DNA from: Bacteroidales bacterium
Lineage (GTDB): Bacteria > Bacteroidota > Bacteroidia > Bacteroidales > GWF2-38-335
Direction: 5' to 3'
Length of the DNA stretch: 35,958 bases
NCBI GenBank assembly: GCA_016936815.1
Contig: JAFGXD010000130.1
Span: 1-35,958, forward strand
Positions 17,418-24,440 of this stretch are shown piece by piece. The notes beneath the pieces are model-generated. The model did not search any database. It saw only the letters and a list, made by a program, of their open reading frames with translations, and had not been told where the DNA came from. The translations under genes were made by a program, and so were the position numbers. Position 1 is the stretch's first letter. Each line of letters starts with the position of its first letter.

Positions 17418-19649
17418 ATGAAAAGAAGAGAATTTATTAAGATTTCATCCATAGGTCTTGGCGGAATTGCTGTGGCTTCTTCTCTATACCGATGGGTTCC
17501 TTCCGATATTTTTGGAAAATATACCGAGAGTGGAGAGAAAGAAGATAATGTTAGAACCCCAACCTACTGCGAAATTTGCTTTTGGCAATGTGCCGGCTGG
17601 GTTCATACTACTTCGGAAGGCAGAATAAAGAAAATTACCGGTCACGACGACGACCCGCATTGCAACGGTCGTTTATGCCCCAGAGGAACCGGAGGCGTTG
17701 GTATGTTCTACGATGAAGACCGATTAAAAACCCCTCTTATTAGAACAAAAGAACGCGGTAAAGATGTTTTTCGAGAAGCTACATGGGACGAGGCATTCGA
17801 CTATATTGCCGAGAAACTAAAAGACATTGCCGCAAAACACGGTCCCGAATGTATTGCTCTTTTTACCCACGGTTCAGGAGGAAAATTCTTCGGTCATTTA
17901 CTTAAGGCTATGGGTTCCGATAATATTGGAGCACCTTCCTATGCTCAATGCCGCGGACCCAGGGAAGTTGCTTTTTATTCAACTTTCGGCTCAATAATTG
18001 GTTCTCCCGAACCTACCGATATTCGAGATACCCGTTGTCTGGTGCTTATTGGAAGTCACCTTGGCGAAAATATGCATAACTCACAGGTTCAGGAAATGTC
18101 GGATGCAATCGACAAAGGTGCTGCCATAATTACAGTCGACCCTCGTTACTCTATTGCGGCTTCAAAATCGAAATTCTGGCTACCAATAAAACCGGCTACC
18201 GATTTGGCTTTGCTTCTTTCGTGGATCCATGTGCTAATTTATGAGGAATGGTACGACAAAGATTATGTGGAAAGACGAACTTTTGGTTTCGAGCAACTTA
18301 AAAACCACGTAAAAGATTTTACCCCTGAATGGGCTCATGGAATTACAACAATTGAACCTCACATAATTAGAGAAACAGCAAGAGAAATGGCAACGGCCAG
18401 TCCTGCGGTTATCGTTCATCCGGGCCGACATGTTACTTGGTATGGCGACGATACTCAAAGAATGAGAGCAGTTGCTATTTTAAATGCTTTATTAGGTTCA
18501 TGGGGACGACGAGGCGGCTTTTTTAACCCCGAATCTCAATCCTTACCAAAATTCCCCCATCCCGAATATCCAAAACCAAAAAGAACCTGGAGAGACGCTT
18601 TCCCCGGAAAATACGTACTTGCAGGAGATGTTTTGGCATCCGGTATGTGCGATGCAACTATTCCAACCCCGGCAAGAGATTGCGAAATAAAAGCCTGGCT
18701 TGTTAATGGCACAAATCTTATAGAAACTCTTCCAAATAGAAAAAACACTCTCGAGGCGATTCAAAACCTCGAATTAATGGTTGTTGTAGATACAATGCCA
18801 ATGGAAATTACCGGCTGGGCAGATGTTGTTCTTCCCGAATGTACATATTTGGAAAGATACGATATGGTTAGAGCATCTGCACATAGAGAAGCTACTTTGG
18901 CTCTAAGAATGCCTGCCAGAGAGCCTCTTTATGATTCTAAACCGGCCTGGTGGATGGCAAAAGAACTAGGTCACCGACTTGGTCTGGATGAATATTTCAA
19001 TTACGAAAATATTGAGGAAATGCTCGACTGGCAGTTAAAACAGGTAGGGTCTTCTCTCTCAGAAATGCAAAAATTGGGAGTAAAAAGAATACCACGACAA
19101 TACGATGACTTATATTTCCGAGATAGCGATGAGGTTGAATTTAACACCAATTCAGGGAAAATTGAACTTTATTCGTCGGATTTAGCTAATGCAGGTTTCG
19201 ACCCAATTCCGGTTTATACTGCGCATCCGGAGCCTCCTCCGAATTTCTATCGTTTAAATTATGGAAGAGCTCCTATGCATACTTTTACTCGTACTGCCAA
19301 TAACCCAAATTTAACCGACTTAATGGACGAAAATACTCTTTGGGTAAATCCTAAAGTTGCAAAAATTTGGGATTTGAAAAACAATCAATACGTTAAACTT
19401 AAGAATCAGGATGGCGTTGTATCATCTTTTGCAATAAAAGTTAGGGTTACCGAAAGAATTCGTCACGATTCTGTTTATATGGTGCATGGTTTCGGACATT
19501 CAAACCCAAAACTTTCAAGAGCGCACGGACGAGGTGCTTCCGATTCGGAATTAATTACCAACGTAATGCTTGATCCTATTATGGGAGGAACAGGAATGAG
19601 AGGAAATTTTGTAACTTTTATTACTAATGTAGAGGAGGTACAGGCATGA
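17418..19649 (+). CDS. Molybdopterin oxidoreductase, polysulfide/thiosulfate reductase catalytic subunit type
   Basis: A 743-residue Mo-bisMGD enzyme of the PsrA/PhsA branch of the DMSO reductase family. The N-terminus has a Tat signal (KRREFIKISSIG followed by a hydrophobic stretch), so the folded enzyme should be exported. The 4Fe-4S site is CEICFWQC with Cys51, 54 and 58, then Cys87 in GRLCPRG. Cys178 in YAQCRGPRE stands where the Mo ligand is expected. The C-terminal molybdopterin-dinucleotide domain (ENTLWVNPKVAKIWDL) is complete. With the adjacent ferredoxin and NrfD subunits it would form a quinol-linked sulfur reductase, or act in reverse. Other substrates such as tetrathionate or arsenate cannot be ruled out by sequence alone, but sulfur neighbours favour polysulfide or thiosulfate. 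It overlaps the next gene by 4 bases. Confidence 0.9.
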   Translation: MKRREFIKISSIGLGGIAVASSLYRWVPSDIFGKYTESGEKEDNVRTPTYCEICFWQCAGWVHTTSEGRIKKITGHDDDPHCNGRLCPRGTGGVGMFYDEDRLKTPLIRTKERGKDVFREATWDEAFDYIAEKLKDIAAKHGPECIALFTHGSGGKFFGHLLKAMGSDNIGAPSYAQCRGPREVAFYSTFGSIIGSPEPTDIRDTRCLVLIGSHLGENMHNSQVQEMSDAIDKGAAIITVDPRYSIAASKSKFWLPIKPATDLALLLSWIHVLIYEEWYDKDYVERRTFGFEQLKNHVKDFTPEWAHGITTIEPHIIRETAREMATASPAVIVHPGRHVTWYGDDTQRMRAVAILNALLGSWGRRGGFFNPESQSLPKFPHPEYPKPKRTWRDAFPGKYVLAGDVLASGMCDATIPTPARDCEIKAWLVNGTNLIETLPNRKNTLEAIQNLELMVVVDTMPMEITGWADVVLPECTYLERYDMVRASAHREATLALRMPAREPLYDSKPAWWMAKELGHRLGLDEYFNYENIEEMLDWQLKQVGSSLSEMQKLGVKRIPRQYDDLYFRDSDEVEFNTNSGKIELYSSDLANAGFDPIPVYTAHPEPPPNFYRLNYGRAPMHTFTRTANNPNLTDLMDENTLWVNPKVAKIWDLKNNQYVKLKNQDGVVSSFAIKVRVTERIRHDSVYMVHGFGHSNPKLSRAHGRGASDSELITNVMLDPIMGGTGMRGNFVTFITNVEEVQA

Positions 19650-20179
19650 GATACGCAATGGCAATTGATACAAAAAAGTGTGTTGGCTGCAGCGACTGCG
19701 TAGTTGCTTGTCAGACCGAACATAACGTGCCCATTGGCTACTGCCGCGATTGGGTTGTTGAGGTAACCGATGGAACTTATCCTGTTTTAGAACTTGAAAA
19801 CCGCTCGGAAAGATGTAACCACTGCGAAAATTCTCCTTGTGTAAGATGTTGTCCCACAGGTGCCAGTCATTATTCCGAAGGTGGAATCGTTCTTGTAACC
19901 AAACACGAATGTATTGGCTGCGGAGCTTGTATTCAGTCATGCCCTTACGATGCCAGATACACTCATCCCGAAGGATATGTTGATAAATGCACATTCTGCA
20001 ACGACAGGGTTGGAAAAGGAATGCAGCCGGCTTGTGTTGCAGTTTGTCCAACAAAATGTATGTATTTTGGCGACTTGGATAATCCTAATTCGGAAATTTC
20101 GAAAATTCTTGCTTTAAGAAAACATAAAACATTAATTCCGGAAGCAGGAACTCAACCTCATGTTTATTTCTTAATTTAA
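19646..20179 (+). CDS. PsrB/NrfC-type four-cluster ferredoxin subunit
   Basis: A 177-residue electron-transfer subunit with four groups of Cys: CVGCSDCVVAC, CNHCENSPCVRCC, CIGCGACIQSC and CTFCNDRVGKGMQPACVAVC, giving 16 ligands for four [4Fe-4S] clusters as in PsrB, PhsB, DmsB and NrfC. It would conduct electrons between the membrane NrfD subunit and the Mo-enzyme. No Tat signal is present, as usual when it is exported together with the catalytic subunit. The ATG overlaps the stop of the catalytic gene (ATGA), which indicates coupled translation. Confidence 0.93.
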   Translation: MRYAMAIDTKKCVGCSDCVVACQTEHNVPIGYCRDWVVEVTDGTYPVLELENRSERCNHCENSPCVRCCPTGASHYSEGGIVLVTKHECIGCGACIQSCPYDARYTHPEGYVDKCTFCNDRVGKGMQPACVAVCPTKCMYFGDLDNPNSEISKILALRKHKTLIPEAGTQPHVYFLI

Positions 20180-20196
20180 AACAAACATAAACAGTA

Positions 20197-21189
20197 ATGA
20201 AAGAAGAAATTATTGTAAGCGGTAGGATGAACCCCAACATAGACCCTGTGTTGCATGTATGGCACTGGGAAATTCCTACTTACCTTTTTCTTGGCGGTCT
20301 TGCAGCCGGCATAATGTTTTTTGCAGGATTGTTTTATATTCAGGGTAAAGAAAATAAATTCCGCTCTGCTGTAAAATTTGCACCCTTTTTGGTTCCTGTA
20401 GCTTTGGGATTGGGATTGTTTGCGCTATTTCTGGATTTAACCCACAAATGGTATTTTTGGCAACTTTACACCACAATTAAATTAGAATCGCCAATGTCGT
20501 GGGGAGCTTGGGTGTTAATGATTGTTACTCCTCTTTCAATTATTTGGAGTTTAACTTACACACAAGAACTTTTCGACCATTGGAAAATGAATTATCCAAA
20601 AATTTACAAAAGAACAAAATGGGTTGAAAAAGTTATTTTTAAGTATAAGCTTATTAGAAATTTTATTTCAGGTGCAGCGCAACAGAGAAAAACAATGGCT
20701 TGGGTAATGATTTTTATGGCTATTATTCTTGGGATTTATACCGGAATTTTACTTTCGGCTTTTAACGCCCGACCTTTGTGGAATACCTCAATTTTAGGTC
20801 CATTATTTCTTGTTTCCGGACTATCTACCGGTGCAGCAATAATTATGTGGCTTTCAAAAGATTCTGTTGAAAGAAAATATTTCAGTAGAATTGATCTAAT
20901 GCTTATTGGCATAGAATTATTCCTAATTATTCACATGTTTATGGGTTTTATGGCCAGCACGCAGGTGCAAATAGACACGGCTCAAATGTTTCTTGGTGGT
21001 GAATTTACTCTTACTTTTTGGGTTTTTGTTGTTTTTATGGGACTGGTACTTCCGGGAATTCTGGAATTTTTAGAATTTAAAGGCTATCATTTGCCTGTTT
21101 TTATTCCCGCATTTCTAATACTTTTTGGAGGAGCAATGCTTAGAATAATAATGGTTGAAGCCGGTCAGGCCAGTAGATATTTGTATTGA
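20197..21189 (+). CDS. NrfD/PsrC family quinone-binding membrane subunit
   Basis: A 330-residue integral membrane protein with about eight hydrophobic helices, opening with WHWEIPTYLFLGGLAAGIMF, a strong NrfD/PsrC signature. These subunits bind menaquinol and anchor the periplasmic Fe-S and Mo subunits. Later helices hold STGAAIIMWLSKD and the final GGAMLRIIMVEAGQ. Length is in the range of PsrC (about 315). It starts 17 bases after the ferredoxin gene and completes a PsrABC-like complex. Confidence 0.92.
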   Translation: MKEEIIVSGRMNPNIDPVLHVWHWEIPTYLFLGGLAAGIMFFAGLFYIQGKENKFRSAVKFAPFLVPVALGLGLFALFLDLTHKWYFWQLYTTIKLESPMSWGAWVLMIVTPLSIIWSLTYTQELFDHWKMNYPKIYKRTKWVEKVIFKYKLIRNFISGAAQQRKTMAWVMIFMAIILGIYTGILLSAFNARPLWNTSILGPLFLVSGLSTGAAIIMWLSKDSVERKYFSRIDLMLIGIELFLIIHMFMGFMASTQVQIDTAQMFLGGEFTLTFWVFVVFMGLVLPGILEFLEFKGYHLPVFIPAFLILFGGAMLRIIMVEAGQASRYLY

Positions 21190-21214
21190 TTAATTATTTG
21201 AAAAAGAAAAAAAT

Positions 21215-21736
21215 ATGCTTGAAAAGAAAAAATGGAAATATATGAATCCCTATTTTGCAGGGACTCTGCTCGGCTTGGTTTTACTAGCTTCCTTCTACTT
21301 TGCAGGTCAGGGTTTGGGTGCCAGCGGTGCCGGTAAAAAGGTGGTTGTTACTTCGGTAATCGCAGTGGCGCCGGGATATGCAGAAAATAGCGATTTCTAC
21401 AAAGATTTTGCTGCTTCCGAGCACAGTCCTATGTACGACTGGCTTGTTTTTCAGGTTCTTGGGGTTCTTTTGGGAGGATTTCTTTCAGGAGCTTTGGCAG
21501 GAAGACTTACATGGAAAGTGGAAAGGTCGCCTAAAATTTCGCGCAGAAAACGATTAATATTTGCCGTAATTGGTGGAATGTTATTTGGTTTTGGGGCTCA
21601 ACTGGCCAAAGGTTGTACCAGCGGAGCAGCTTTAAGCGGAATGGCAACTCTTGCTCTTTCGGGCTTTGTTGCTATGGTTGGAATTTTTGGAACAGCCTTT
21701 ATGTTATCGTTCTTGTTTAAAAAACTTTGGGTTTAA
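21215..21736 (+). CDS. YeeE/YedE-type sulfur transporter, first half
   Basis: A 173-residue membrane protein corresponding to about half of a full YeeE/YedE (DUF395) thiosulfate channel (about 350 residues in E. coli TsuA). The key motif GAQLAKGCTSGAALSGMATL places the conserved Cys in a membrane hairpin, where YeeE passes thiosulfate along a row of Cys residues. About four hydrophobic segments are present, and a soluble loop at about 42-65 (AENSDFYKDFAASEHSPMYD) would face outside. It is followed after 10 bases by the second half-gene, and the two probably assemble as a heterodimer. Confidence 0.88.
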   Translation: MLEKKKWKYMNPYFAGTLLGLVLLASFYFAGQGLGASGAGKKVVVTSVIAVAPGYAENSDFYKDFAASEHSPMYDWLVFQVLGVLLGGFLSGALAGRLTWKVERSPKISRRKRLIFAVIGGMLFGFGAQLAKGCTSGAALSGMATLALSGFVAMVGIFGTAFMLSFLFKKLWV

Positions 21737-21746
21737 AAATATTGTT

Positions 21747-22367
21747 ATGGGACCAATTGTTCAAAATTTAGGATTATCAACGGAAATTAATTTTCTAATT
21801 GCTTTTCTGTTGGGAATAGGCTTCGGATTCGTTCTGGAACAAGCCGGATTCTCCTCATCTCGCCGTTTGGCAGGAATGTTTTACGGTTACGATACTACCG
21901 TGCTAAAAGTCTTCTTTACCGCTGCTATTGTAGCTATGGCAGGACTTTTCTTTATGAACTATTTAGAAATGATAAATCTTAATCAGGTTTACGTTCACGA
22001 TGCTGCTATTTGGGCTGCTGCTATTGGCGGAATTATTATGGGGGGAGGTTTTATTATGGGAGGTTTTTGTCCCGGCACCAGCGTTTCAGCCGCTGCTATT
22101 GGAAAAGTAGATGCTATTTTCTTTTTAGGCGGATTGCTTTTGGGAATTTTTGTTTTCGGCTTTTTTGCGCCAATGTTCTCGGGAATTATTTCTCCAGAAG
22201 AAGGAAGCTACTGGTTTGTTGATTCTCACAAGAAAATTAGCGATGCTCTAGGAGTTTCCGACAGCATCTTTGCTCTGCTTTTAATTGTTATGGCTGTTTG
22301 TATGTTTGTTTTTGGCGAATGGCTTGAAAAGAAATTTGCACGTCCCGATATTACTAAAGAAATTTAA
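21747..22367 (+). CDS. YeeE/YedE-type sulfur transporter, second half
   Basis: A 206-residue DUF395 membrane protein. The ATG at 21747 gives the natural start (MGPIVQNLGLSTEINFLIAF); the frame is open further upstream, but that part overlaps the first half-gene. The motif VLEQAGFSSSRRLAGMFYGY marks the N-terminal half, and GGGFIMGGFCPGTSVSAAAI carries the conserved Cys of the channel. About five to six transmembrane helices. Together with the previous gene it makes a complete set of YeeE Cys-bearing motifs, split over two proteins, and should move thiosulfate or another reduced sulfur species across the inner membrane. Confidence 0.88.
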   Translation: MGPIVQNLGLSTEINFLIAFLLGIGFGFVLEQAGFSSSRRLAGMFYGYDTTVLKVFFTAAIVAMAGLFFMNYLEMINLNQVYVHDAAIWAAAIGGIIMGGGFIMGGFCPGTSVSAAAIGKVDAIFFLGGLLLGIFVFGFFAPMFSGIISPEEGSYWFVDSHKKISDALGVSDSIFALLLIVMAVCMFVFGEWLEKKFARPDITKEI

Positions 22368-22378
22368 TATAATGCCTT

Positions 22379-22999
22379 ATGAGTAAACCACTTAGAATAC
22401 TTGCGGTAATAGTAATTCTGGCAGGAATTAGCATAGCTTTTCTTCCCGAAAGAAACAATGTTGTTCAATTGGATGCCGAAGAAATAATGTTTGAAATGAA
22501 AACCGAATCTAATATGGAATCGGTTGACAATCTGGCTAAAATGCTTATAGAAAAAGACCCTACTTTGCTAATTATTGACGTAAGAACTGCCGAAGAATTT
22601 GCTGAGTTTTCATTGCCGGGCTCTATGAATATTCCTTTGGAACAAATTCTTAATCCCGATTGGAAAGATCTTTTAGAAGATTTTGCCGGTGTTTACCACA
22701 AGGTTTTTGTTTCAAACGGAACAAGCAAAGCCTCAGAGGCCTGGATGATTTGCAGAAGACAAGGTTTTAAAAACAATTATGTGTTAAAAGGCGGGCTGAA
22801 TGAATGGTTCAACCTTGTGATTCATCCCGAAAAACCAAAATCAACTGAAGATACTAAGGCAATGGCAGATTATCAAAGAAGATTGGGTTTTCAGCAATTT
22901 TTTACCGGTGGAAAAGCATCGGTTGGTTCAATAGATAATTCGGCTGTTCCAACAATAAATATTAAGAAGAAAAAAGGCCCTTCGGGAGGCTGTGGATAA
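22379..22999 (+). CDS. Membrane-anchored rhodanese-fold protein without loop Cys, GGCG tail
   Basis: A 206-residue protein. An N-terminal hydrophobic segment (about 6-22) should anchor or export it. A rhodanese domain covers about 45-150: LLIIDVRTAEEFAEFSLPGS, then NIPLEQIL, and the conserved EAWMICRRQGF ... LKGGLNEW. At the active-site loop, where rhodaneses have Cys, the sequence is VSNGTSKASEAW, so the catalytic Cys is missing. The C-terminus is instead a flexible Lys/Gly-rich tail ending KKKKGPSGGCG, whose only Cys is the penultimate residue. The same tail ends the next gene. Sulfur carriage on the tail Cys is inferred. It follows the YeeE pair by 11 bases. Confidence 0.82.
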   Translation: MSKPLRILAVIVILAGISIAFLPERNNVVQLDAEEIMFEMKTESNMESVDNLAKMLIEKDPTLLIIDVRTAEEFAEFSLPGSMNIPLEQILNPDWKDLLEDFAGVYHKVFVSNGTSKASEAWMICRRQGFKNNYVLKGGLNEWFNLVIHPEKPKSTEDTKAMADYQRRLGFQQFFTGGKASVGSIDNSAVPTINIKKKKGPSGGCG

Positions 23000-23010
23000 A
23001 AATTAATTAT

Positions 23011-23637
23011 ATGAAAAAGATATTACCATTCATTTTTTTGGGACTTGCTTCCCTTTTTGTTATTGGCTTTGTTTTTTCCAAAGAATTAAAAGAAAGCAAA
23101 AAGTATGTGCTTAACGAAAGTGAAAGTCAAATACTTGAAAAAATACTTAACAAACAACAGTTTATTAATCCCGTTGAACTTTCGAAACTTATTGAAAGTA
23201 AAAATGAGACTTTTGTTTTGGTTGACATTCGCAATCCTCTAAATTACAGAAAGGGAAAAATTGGCGATGCAATAAACATTCCCTTTCAGCAAATTATAGA
23301 TTCTAAATGGGCAGAATTTTTTAAAGACAGTGCAAGCCTTAAGATACTTTATTGTAATTTAGATATTTATGCCAACGAAGCCTGGATGCTCCTAGACCAG
23401 CTTGGTTACCGAAATATTAAGGTGCTTGAAGGCGGCTATGATTTCTGGAAAGAAAATGTTGACAAGAACAACAAAGTAAAAAACAGTGAAGCACACGATG
23501 AAATTCCTGCATTCAAATATAAGGAGGAAATGATGAAGGCAGGCAACGGTGATACTACAAACCTTAAACAAGAAAACACACCTCCCATTCAAATAACCAT
23601 TAAGAAAAAAGGCGGACCTAAGGGAGGTTGTGGTTAA
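23011..23637 (+). CDS. Membrane-anchored rhodanese-fold protein with loop Cys, GGCG tail
   Basis: A 208-residue paralogue of the preceding gene, with an N-terminal signal or anchor (MKKILPFIFLGLASLFVIGF). The rhodanese domain (FVLVDIRNPLNYRKGKIGDA, NIPFQQII, NEAWMLLDQLGYRNIKVLEG) keeps a Cys at the active-site position in ILYCNLDIYANEAW, although the loop is not the classic CxxGxR. The C-terminus is PIQITIKKKGGPKGGCG, again with a lone tail Cys next to last. The pair thus has one catalytic and one non-catalytic rhodanese module with the same tail. Its stop overlaps the tatC stop by 4 bases on the other strand. Confidence 0.83.
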   Translation: MKKILPFIFLGLASLFVIGFVFSKELKESKKYVLNESESQILEKILNKQQFINPVELSKLIESKNETFVLVDIRNPLNYRKGKIGDAINIPFQQIIDSKWAEFFKDSASLKILYCNLDIYANEAWMLLDQLGYRNIKVLEGGYDFWKENVDKNNKVKNSEAHDEIPAFKYKEEMMKAGNGDTTNLKQENTPPIQITIKKKGGPKGGCG

Positions 23638-24440
23638 TTTTCACTTCTCAAAACCCAAATACTTGCCTCATAAAGCAAATACATTGGTAAAGCAACAAGA
23701 ATTTGAGAGAACACATCGGGTGGAGTAATAATTCCTGCAAAAATTATAAAAACAATTAATGCATGTTTTCGATATTTCTTTAGAAAACTTTTGGTTAACA
23801 TTCCTATTTTCCCTAACAAAAATGCAACTAAAGGAAGCTGAAAAGCCAATCCGGTAACCAAAACAAGCGTGGTAATATTCGAAATATACGAACTCATGGA
23901 AACAAGATTGGTTAATTGTTCCGAAAGTTCATAGTTTATTAAAAAATTAATGGTTAATGGAACTATAACAAAGTAGGCAAAAAGAACCCCTATAATTAGT
24001 AAAGTAAAGGAAATCAACACACTACCCTTAAGTTTTGAAGCAAGATTATCGCCGGCAACTTTTCTAATAAAACGAATAAACTCATATACCAAAAAGGGGA
24101 AAGTAAGCAAAAGAGCCGCCACAAATGAAGCAATTAAATGAAGGCTGAACTGTCCCGATAATTCGTAATTTATTAATTGAAAATTTGAGGAGTTTATACA
24201 CAAATCGGGAATACCAAAATATAAGGCCAAATTGCACATTAATAAGTTTGTTGGAAAACCGGGGCTTTTTGGCGCAAACAAAATCTGGTCGAAAAGAATT
24301 TCTTTATTTATAAAGACAAAGAAGAAAATTAATAATAAAAGAACAATATATCTAATAAGATGAATCCTAAAAGCATCGGCATAATCGTAAACTGAATTAT
24401 ACTTTTTTCTAGGGTTTTTTATTTTAAAAAGAGCCGACAT
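23634..24440 (-). CDS. tatC: Sec-independent protein translocase subunit TatC
   Basis: A 268-residue TatC with about six transmembrane helices, the receptor for twin-arginine signals. The loop and helix pattern is clear: LRYIVLLLLIF-like first helix, periplasmic loop with GFPTNLLMCNLALYFG, FPFLVYEFIRFIRK with the Glu-containing cytoplasmic face, LLIIGVLFAYFVIVPLTINF, and IIFAGIITPPDVFSQILVALPMYLLYE near the end. It lies 5 bases after a histidine kinase gene on the minus strand and ends against the sulfur operon, whose catalytic subunit has a Tat signal. TatA/B are not in the window. Confidence 0.92.
   Translation of the reverse strand: MSALFKIKNPRKKYNSVYDYADAFRIHLIRYIVLLLLIFFFVFINKEILFDQILFAPKSPGFPTNLLMCNLALYFGIPDLCINSSNFQLINYELSGQFSLHLIASFVAALLLTFPFLVYEFIRFIRKVAGDNLASKLKGSVLISFTLLIIGVLFAYFVIVPLTINFLINYELSEQLTNLVSMSSYISNITTLVLVTGLAFQLPLVAFLLGKIGMLTKSFLKKYRKHALIVFIIFAGIITPPDVFSQILVALPMYLLYEASIWVLRSEN

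Follow-up and report, generated by a model that had tools for sequence, protein, structure and literature searches.

Sulfur carriers and the psrABC-yeeE-rhodanese operon

DsrC is a sulfur carrier with a conserved Cys by the C-terminal end of a mobile arm, and it works with an NrfD-type membrane complex. The Wolinella polysulfide-sulfur transferase Sud (PDB 1qxn) has a rhodanese fold and is thought to feed sulfane sulfur to PsrA. In SoxY, sulfur is carried on the Cys of a C-terminal GGCGG (PMC6067878, PMC5336275); in a published survey, a divergent soxY was found next to an octaheme tetrathionate reductase gene, and a further one next to YeeE and DMSO reductase-like genes (PMC11237559). A psrABC-DUF395-rhodanese set (PSRLC2-like) has been noted in Ca. 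Thermonerobacter, with psrABC resembling those of Melioribacter and Ignavibacterium (PMC6338057).

Here, we describe an operon in a 35,958-nt stretch of DNA from a Bacteroidales bacterium (contig JAFGXD010000130.1; hereafter, the window). The genes at 17418-23637 run psrA-psrB-psrC-yeeE1-yeeE2-rhoA-rhoB, with rhoA and rhoB at the operon's end (Table 1). Compared by description only, this is the gene set of the Ca. Thermonerobacter cluster, and the passage on that cluster mentions neither the tail Cys nor the missing loop Cys reported below (PMC6338057). An earlier note on this DNA, made from the sequence, had presented the system as not known to be described. The operon has been reported before; the tail has not, in the open-licence literature, where we found no paper that mentions it.

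Table 1. Features of the operon and its convergent neighbor in the window.
Feature	Position	Strand	Description	Profile match
psrA	17418..19649	+	Tat-exported molybdopterin oxidoreductase (Psr/Phs type), 743 aa	PF00384/PF01568/PF04879
psrB	19646..20179	+	4Fe-4S electron-transfer subunit, 177 aa	PF13247
psrC	20197..21189	+	NrfD/PsrC-type membrane quinone subunit, 330 aa	PF03916, 153 bits
yeeE1	21215..21736	+	YeeE/YedE-family half channel, one invariant Cys (GCTSG)	PF04143
yeeE2	21747..22367	+	second half channel, one invariant Cys (CPGTS)	PF04143
rhoA	22379..22999	+	membrane-anchored pseudo-rhodanese, loop VSNG without catalytic Cys	PF00581
rhoA arm VPTINIKKKKGPSGGCG	22946..22996	+	GGC invariant in 39/39 aligned rhoA	
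rhoB	23011..23637	+	second rhodanese-fold protein, loop Cys here (YCNLDIY)	PF00581
rhoB arm PIQITIKKKGGPKGGCG	23584..23634	+	similar to the rhoA tail of the same genome	
tatC	23634..24440	-	convergent neighbor	PF00902, 163.6 bits

The operon encodes a Psr/Phs-type molybdenum oxidoreductase: a Mo-pterin subunit with a Tat signal, a 4Fe-4S subunit, an NrfD subunit, and a Mo-ligand-type Cys. The best NCBIfam match of PsrA is PhsA (NF012032) at 462 bits, under the equivalog cut-off of 694. Twin-Arg is found in 46/47 PsrA homologues, and all 47 have four Fe-S Cys and one Mo-ligand-type Cys (PSYAQC), which from its position is probably the Mo ligand. The tatC gene, which adjoins the operon in several relatives too, is a component of the PsrA export route and lies outside the carrier system. 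The two YeeE proteins fall in the YeeE/YedE transporter family by profile and by a pore-type Cys that occurs once per half and is invariant in 54/54 homologues of YeeE1 and 54/54 of YeeE2; the start of yeeE2 is the ATG at 21747, within a longer ORF beginning at 21651. The halves resemble PmpB and PmpA, with one conserved Cys each (PMC11582611). In this operon, a periplasmic tailed rhodanese stands in place of the cytoplasmic TusA-like partner of TsuA/YeeE-TsuB/YeeD and PmpAB.

Elsewhere in the window, positions 44-1750 encode the C-terminal part of a large surface protein with near-identical repeats and a sorting-type C-terminal domain. The same genome also has a second sulfur locus (L040; contig C188, 25000-42802) with a full-length YeeE, a porin-like gene, TusA, DsrE, and Hdr-like genes, and two lipoprotein-like rhodaneses whose catalytic loop is intact and whose end, SGGCGG, is SoxY-like. 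Homologues of its 161-aa rhodanese mostly retain a GGCGG, GCGG, or GGC end. This locus resembles the YTD cluster, which is linked to sulfur disproportionation.

RhoA shares the rhodanese fold with Sud, and the RhoA profile matches 1qxn at 6e-5. Sud uses the Cys of its catalytic loop and is not known to have a Cys arm, whereas RhoA is the reverse. DsrC differs in being cytoplasmic, in its fold, and in having two arm Cys; none of the window proteins matches the DsrC family. With SoxY/SoxYZ, RhoA and RhoB would share a periplasmic location and a sulfur-presenting Cys on a Gly-rich C-terminal swinging arm, which for RhoA and RhoB is our proposal. They further share YeeE-family channel partners and, with divergent SoxY, the company of octaheme tetrathionate reductase or DMSO reductase-like genes (PMC11237559, PMC11582611). 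They differ from SoxY in fold (PF00581) and in an arm that ends in GGC, GGCx, or EGC instead of GGCGG, and the tailed rhodaneses are membrane-anchored or fused to YeeE2. Neither RhoA nor RhoB matches the SoxY profile PF13501, nor does any protein of the window's genome. SoxY scored above cut-off in 0/34 genomes with tailed rhodaneses, while the same search found it in 3/6 genomes of family f136; SoxZ and soxXAB were not seen among the operon neighborhoods as annotated. Our best reading of these comparisons is that the tailed rhodanese would work like SoxY, yet is no SoxY.

Tail and loop cysteines in RhoA and RhoB

The RhoA/RhoB pair matches PF00581 above the cut-off (53 and 57.3 bits). As the earlier note had read them, both ORFs end in GGCG with the Cys penultimate; their C-terminal ends are PTINIKKKKGPSGGCG and PIQITIKKKGGPKGGCG. 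The pattern GGNGGNTGYGGNTRA (GGCG plus a stop) has exactly two sites in the 3.58 Mb genome, rhoA and rhoB, and the reversed control gave 0. The note was also right that the RhoA loop (VSNGTSK) lacks Cys and that the RhoB loop (YCNLDIY) has one. The P-x-I-x-I-KKK module that it assigned to both copies is exact in RhoA, whereas RhoB has P-I-Q-I-T-I-KKK. Its statement that RhoA keeps only the tail Cys does not quite hold for this protein, which has an additional, non-conserved Cys125 (MICRRQG), though it does hold for 38/58 rhoA homologues. An AlphaFold model of RhoA (pLDDT 45.8, built from two sequences) is unreliable for the arm and for docking. A RhoB search of genome contigs returned a single match, cyanobacterial and irrelevant.

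The tail Cys is conserved throughout the homologues, as the earlier note's idea of a carrier demanded. Taking from each operon the first rhodanese that follows yeeE2 or is joined to it, 105/106 have the Cys among their final three residues. The lone exception (L074, genome G110) is a rhoA with a frameshift near its end, and KKAVQGGCS is intact in the other frame. As background, 43/1,817 ORFs (2.4%) have a Cys among the last three residues, and a Gly-Cys(x) ending occurs in 0/1,817 non-rhodanese ORFs of the fetched neighborhoods. Among 58 rhoA, the tail Cys is present in 57, the 58th being the frameshifted gene, and the loop position is Ser in 56/58, Gly in 2/58, and Cys in 0/58. The note had described the loop Cys of the first copy as lost; the Cys is indeed absent, but this is not a one-off degeneration. 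A loop without Cys is the family rule, which makes RhoA a pseudo-rhodanese. The tail Cys of rhoB is present in 34/34 and the loop Cys in just 9/34. Across 78 separate rhodaneses, the tail Cys is the only Cys in 56.

Alignment of 39 rhoA sequences shows D67, R69, N84, P86, G138, G139, N141, Y165, G203, G204, and C205 to be invariant, including the rhodanese D-x-R/GG signature (D67, R69, G138, and G139), and the linker preceding the tail differs freely among them, in length as in sequence. In a wider alignment of 43 sequences from three architectures and two phyla, G204 and C205 are the only columns without variation, and 0/43 have the catalytic loop Cys. The family tail consensus is GGC/GGCx/EGC, with no trailing GG; the window proteins have GGCG, and many tails are EGC, DGC, or RGC, without the first Gly. 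The rhoB tails are of the GGC type in 30 of 34, CPDLN in three, and GSCG in one. Those of L090, L097, and L099 end in [NDE]CPDLN, another conserved type of tail, in which the Cys is kept as the fifth residue from the C terminus but Gly-Gly is not.

Three artificial origins of the tail were considered and ruled out. Chance is excluded by the count of the genome pattern (two sites against 0 in the control) and by the ORF background. A Shine-Dalgarno artefact, with GGAGG in the tail codons, is excluded by synonymous variation and by the scarcity of downstream genes: the genes use every one of the four Gly codons, both Cys codons, and each of the three stops, and only 25/105 genes have a same-strand gene start within 60 nt downstream. 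Since synonymous codons vary at all three tail positions, selection acts on the peptide. Search bias toward tail-bearing matches is excluded because homologues were found by similarity of the body, and the tail is three residues.

Distribution and operon architectures

We searched the 39-rhoA profile across the phylum and examined neighborhoods at 40 places. About 55 further genomes of the order have the identical gene order, with between one and three rhodaneses. The third rhodanese (about 340-390 aa) has a lipoprotein-like signal and often ends in GGC as well; two examples seen in full consist of two rhodanese segments with loop Cys. In L088 and L092, the third rhodanese ends in EVCD, and rhoA and rhoB end in GGGCD. 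The co-occurrence with PsrABC that the earlier note had put forward for testing is borne out: 89/295 genomes of the order have a PsrC orthologue, and all 89 carry a homologue of P0002 (genome lists compared by eye). One decayed operon (L071, genome G125), with psrA and psrC broken and an in-frame TAA, has an intact rhodanese and tail.

Tailed rhodaneses occur in three architectures. The first is psrABC-yeeE1-yeeE2-rho with a K-rich arm and a GGC end. The second is the same operon in other classes, with the tail KKKK(x)EGC and a tail Cys that is nearly always the sole Cys. The third has no psrABC; it comprises an octaheme c-type cytochrome, a thiosulfate reductase-like cytochrome b, yeeE1, and a yeeE2-rhodanese fusion ending in KRVxGGC. 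The octaheme cytochrome belongs to TIGR04315, the octaheme tetrathionate reductase family (578 bits against a cut-off of 375). The proposal that a rhodanese with a carrier arm serves PsrABC and YeeE is supported in part: the tail is upheld throughout, but it is not bound to PsrABC, as an octaheme cytochrome c with cytochrome b takes that place elsewhere. The arm is common to two unrelated oxidoreductases (Psr/Phs type and TIGR04315), each of a family whose known chemistry concerns S-S bonds.

Fusion of the rhodanese to yeeE2, seen in 28 operons, brings the arm to the channel. One psrABC operon (L178) has the fused yeeE2-rhodanese. In the neighborhoods examined, the octaheme and cytochrome b genes are accompanied by yeeE1 and then the tailed yeeE2-rhodanese, which is split in L239, except in family f136; octaheme proteins of about 460 aa without cytochrome b have neither yeeE1 nor a tailed yeeE2-rhodanese alongside. 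The octaheme cytochrome, cytochrome b, yeeE1, and yeeE2-rhodanese form a conserved four-gene set (L167, L174, L186, L188, and others), often downstream of a MarR-like regulator. Outside the phylum, a plasmid of Gemmatirosa kalamazoonensis (Gemmatimonadota) carries the yeeE halves followed by a rhodanese with the loop LYSEGG and its sole Cys in RLRRRGC. Among 34 tested genomes with tailed rhodaneses, 32 have a haem-copper oxidase; none was found in the window's own genome or its same-genus relative.

A proposed sulfur-carrying arm and its alternatives

Judging from these patterns of conservation, RhoA and RhoB are probably membrane-tethered periplasmic sulfur carriers, with a terminal Cys on a flexible arm carrying sulfane sulfur. 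The rhodanese domain would be mainly a docking scaffold, and the working group would be the single Cys at the tip of the flexible, usually Lys-rich arm, bearing sulfane sulfur in the form of a Cys persulfide or S-thiosulfonate. At one end of its swing, the arm would reach the mouth of the YeeE1-YeeE2 channel, and at the other, the active site of a quinone-linked sulfur oxidoreductase in the periplasm (PsrABC in this operon, the octaheme cytochrome with cytochrome b elsewhere). We infer that the rhodanese domain faces the periplasm and that the Cys carries sulfur between channel and enzyme; RhoB, with its loop Cys here, may charge or discharge the arm through the usual rhodanese reaction. Flow could be in the direction of reduction, with carrier-bound sulfane converted to sulfide, or of oxidation. 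The same arm recurs alongside either of two unrelated enzymes and on a fused channel, which a carrier of a shared substrate explains better than a docking tag for one partner.

The arms themselves suggest a common partner. An N-terminal membrane helix is present in 76/78 rhodaneses, and the arm extends 36-47 residues after R168, the last conserved core residue, with a mean net charge of +4.7. Over the 12 residues before the tail Cys, rhoA and rhoB are 63% identical within a genome and 38% identical between genomes; 0/5,000 permutations reached the observed value (largest 46%). The bodies show 26.4% identity within and 25.4% between genomes. Relatedness among the genomes somewhat inflates the result for the arms. 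Particular tails recur in pairs: KKKETVIEGGC has two copies in one genome, KKKSAAGGGCD has two in another, and KKEEEGGC has two in one genome, where a third copy ends in EEEGGC. Arms that match within a genome on bodies that do not are expected if one partner reads both, and the paired tails would imply either such a common reader or gene conversion limited to the tail. As a separate observation, acidic arms (EEEGGC, EDEGGC, and DDVGGC) accompany a longer PsrC of about 336-339 aa, against 313 or 330 (L059, L081, L086, L091, and L096).

Counting against the carrier are the CPDLN tails of some rhoB lineages, and the conserved terminal Cys could instead provide disulfide tethering or metal binding. 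If the arm is a tag for docking or tethering, its basic stretch and terminal Cys would hold the protein to YeeE or to the oxidoreductase, possibly through a mixed disulfide, with no substrate sulfur ever on the Cys. The net positive charge of the arms and the matching of paralogues within one genome, as in a docking peptide, fit such a tag, and one invariant Cys per YeeE half is available for pairing. However, the basic stretch varies freely, up to EEEGGC or VIEGGC, whereas Gly-Cys is invariant, and proteins covalently fused to YeeE2 keep the arm, so the arm is not there to hold the protein to the channel. We regard the tag as unlikely.

A processing or modification site is very improbable. 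The terminal Cys would be lipidated, or cleaved off after Gly-Gly to leave a thiocarboxylate carrier, as reportedly happens in QbsE, and a C-terminal Gly-Gly-Cys-x does resemble such precursors. Yet export takes the protein away from ATP-dependent activation, the operons show no recognisable ThiF/MoeB-like or JAMM gene, and the first Gly is missing from many tails. It is harder still to see RhoA and RhoB as ordinary sulfurtransferases with a working rhodanese loop and an incidental tail; the PF00581 fold and the loop Cys of the window RhoB would suit this, but the loop Cys is absent from 58/58 rhoA, 25/34 rhoB, and 43/43 of the wider set, and the tail Cys is retained. A dedicated Mo-enzyme assembly factor (e.g., for cofactor sulfuration or metal delivery to PsrA) is scarcely credible: within the window's order, the tailed protein is always encoded alongside PsrABC, but it also accompanies a molybdenum-free octaheme cytochrome, and PsrA is presumably exported folded via Tat, a step that comes after cofactor insertion.

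For the sulfur-carrier reading, a broader claim seems to us evenly balanced between right and wrong: that the tailed proteins are a new class of extracytoplasmic carrier built on a dead rhodanese, convergent with SoxY and DsrC and linking a split YeeE channel to interchangeable respiratory modules, and that, in the window's phylum and Gemmatimonadota, these complexes have carrier-bound sulfane as their true substrate in place of free polysulfide, thiosulfate, or tetrathionate. Psr/Phs-type enzymes and octaheme tetrathionate reductases are usually annotated as acting on free sulfur compounds. The arm tip holds the only invariant residues and is kept through the exchange of the enzyme and fusion to the channel, which suggests that many of these complexes work on sulfur bound to a protein and are connected with transmembrane transport. 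A carrier role would also account for the survival, in such operons, of rhodanese genes lacking an active-site Cys, and a loop without Cys together with a terminal Gly-Cys offers a cheap sequence test for their reannotation.
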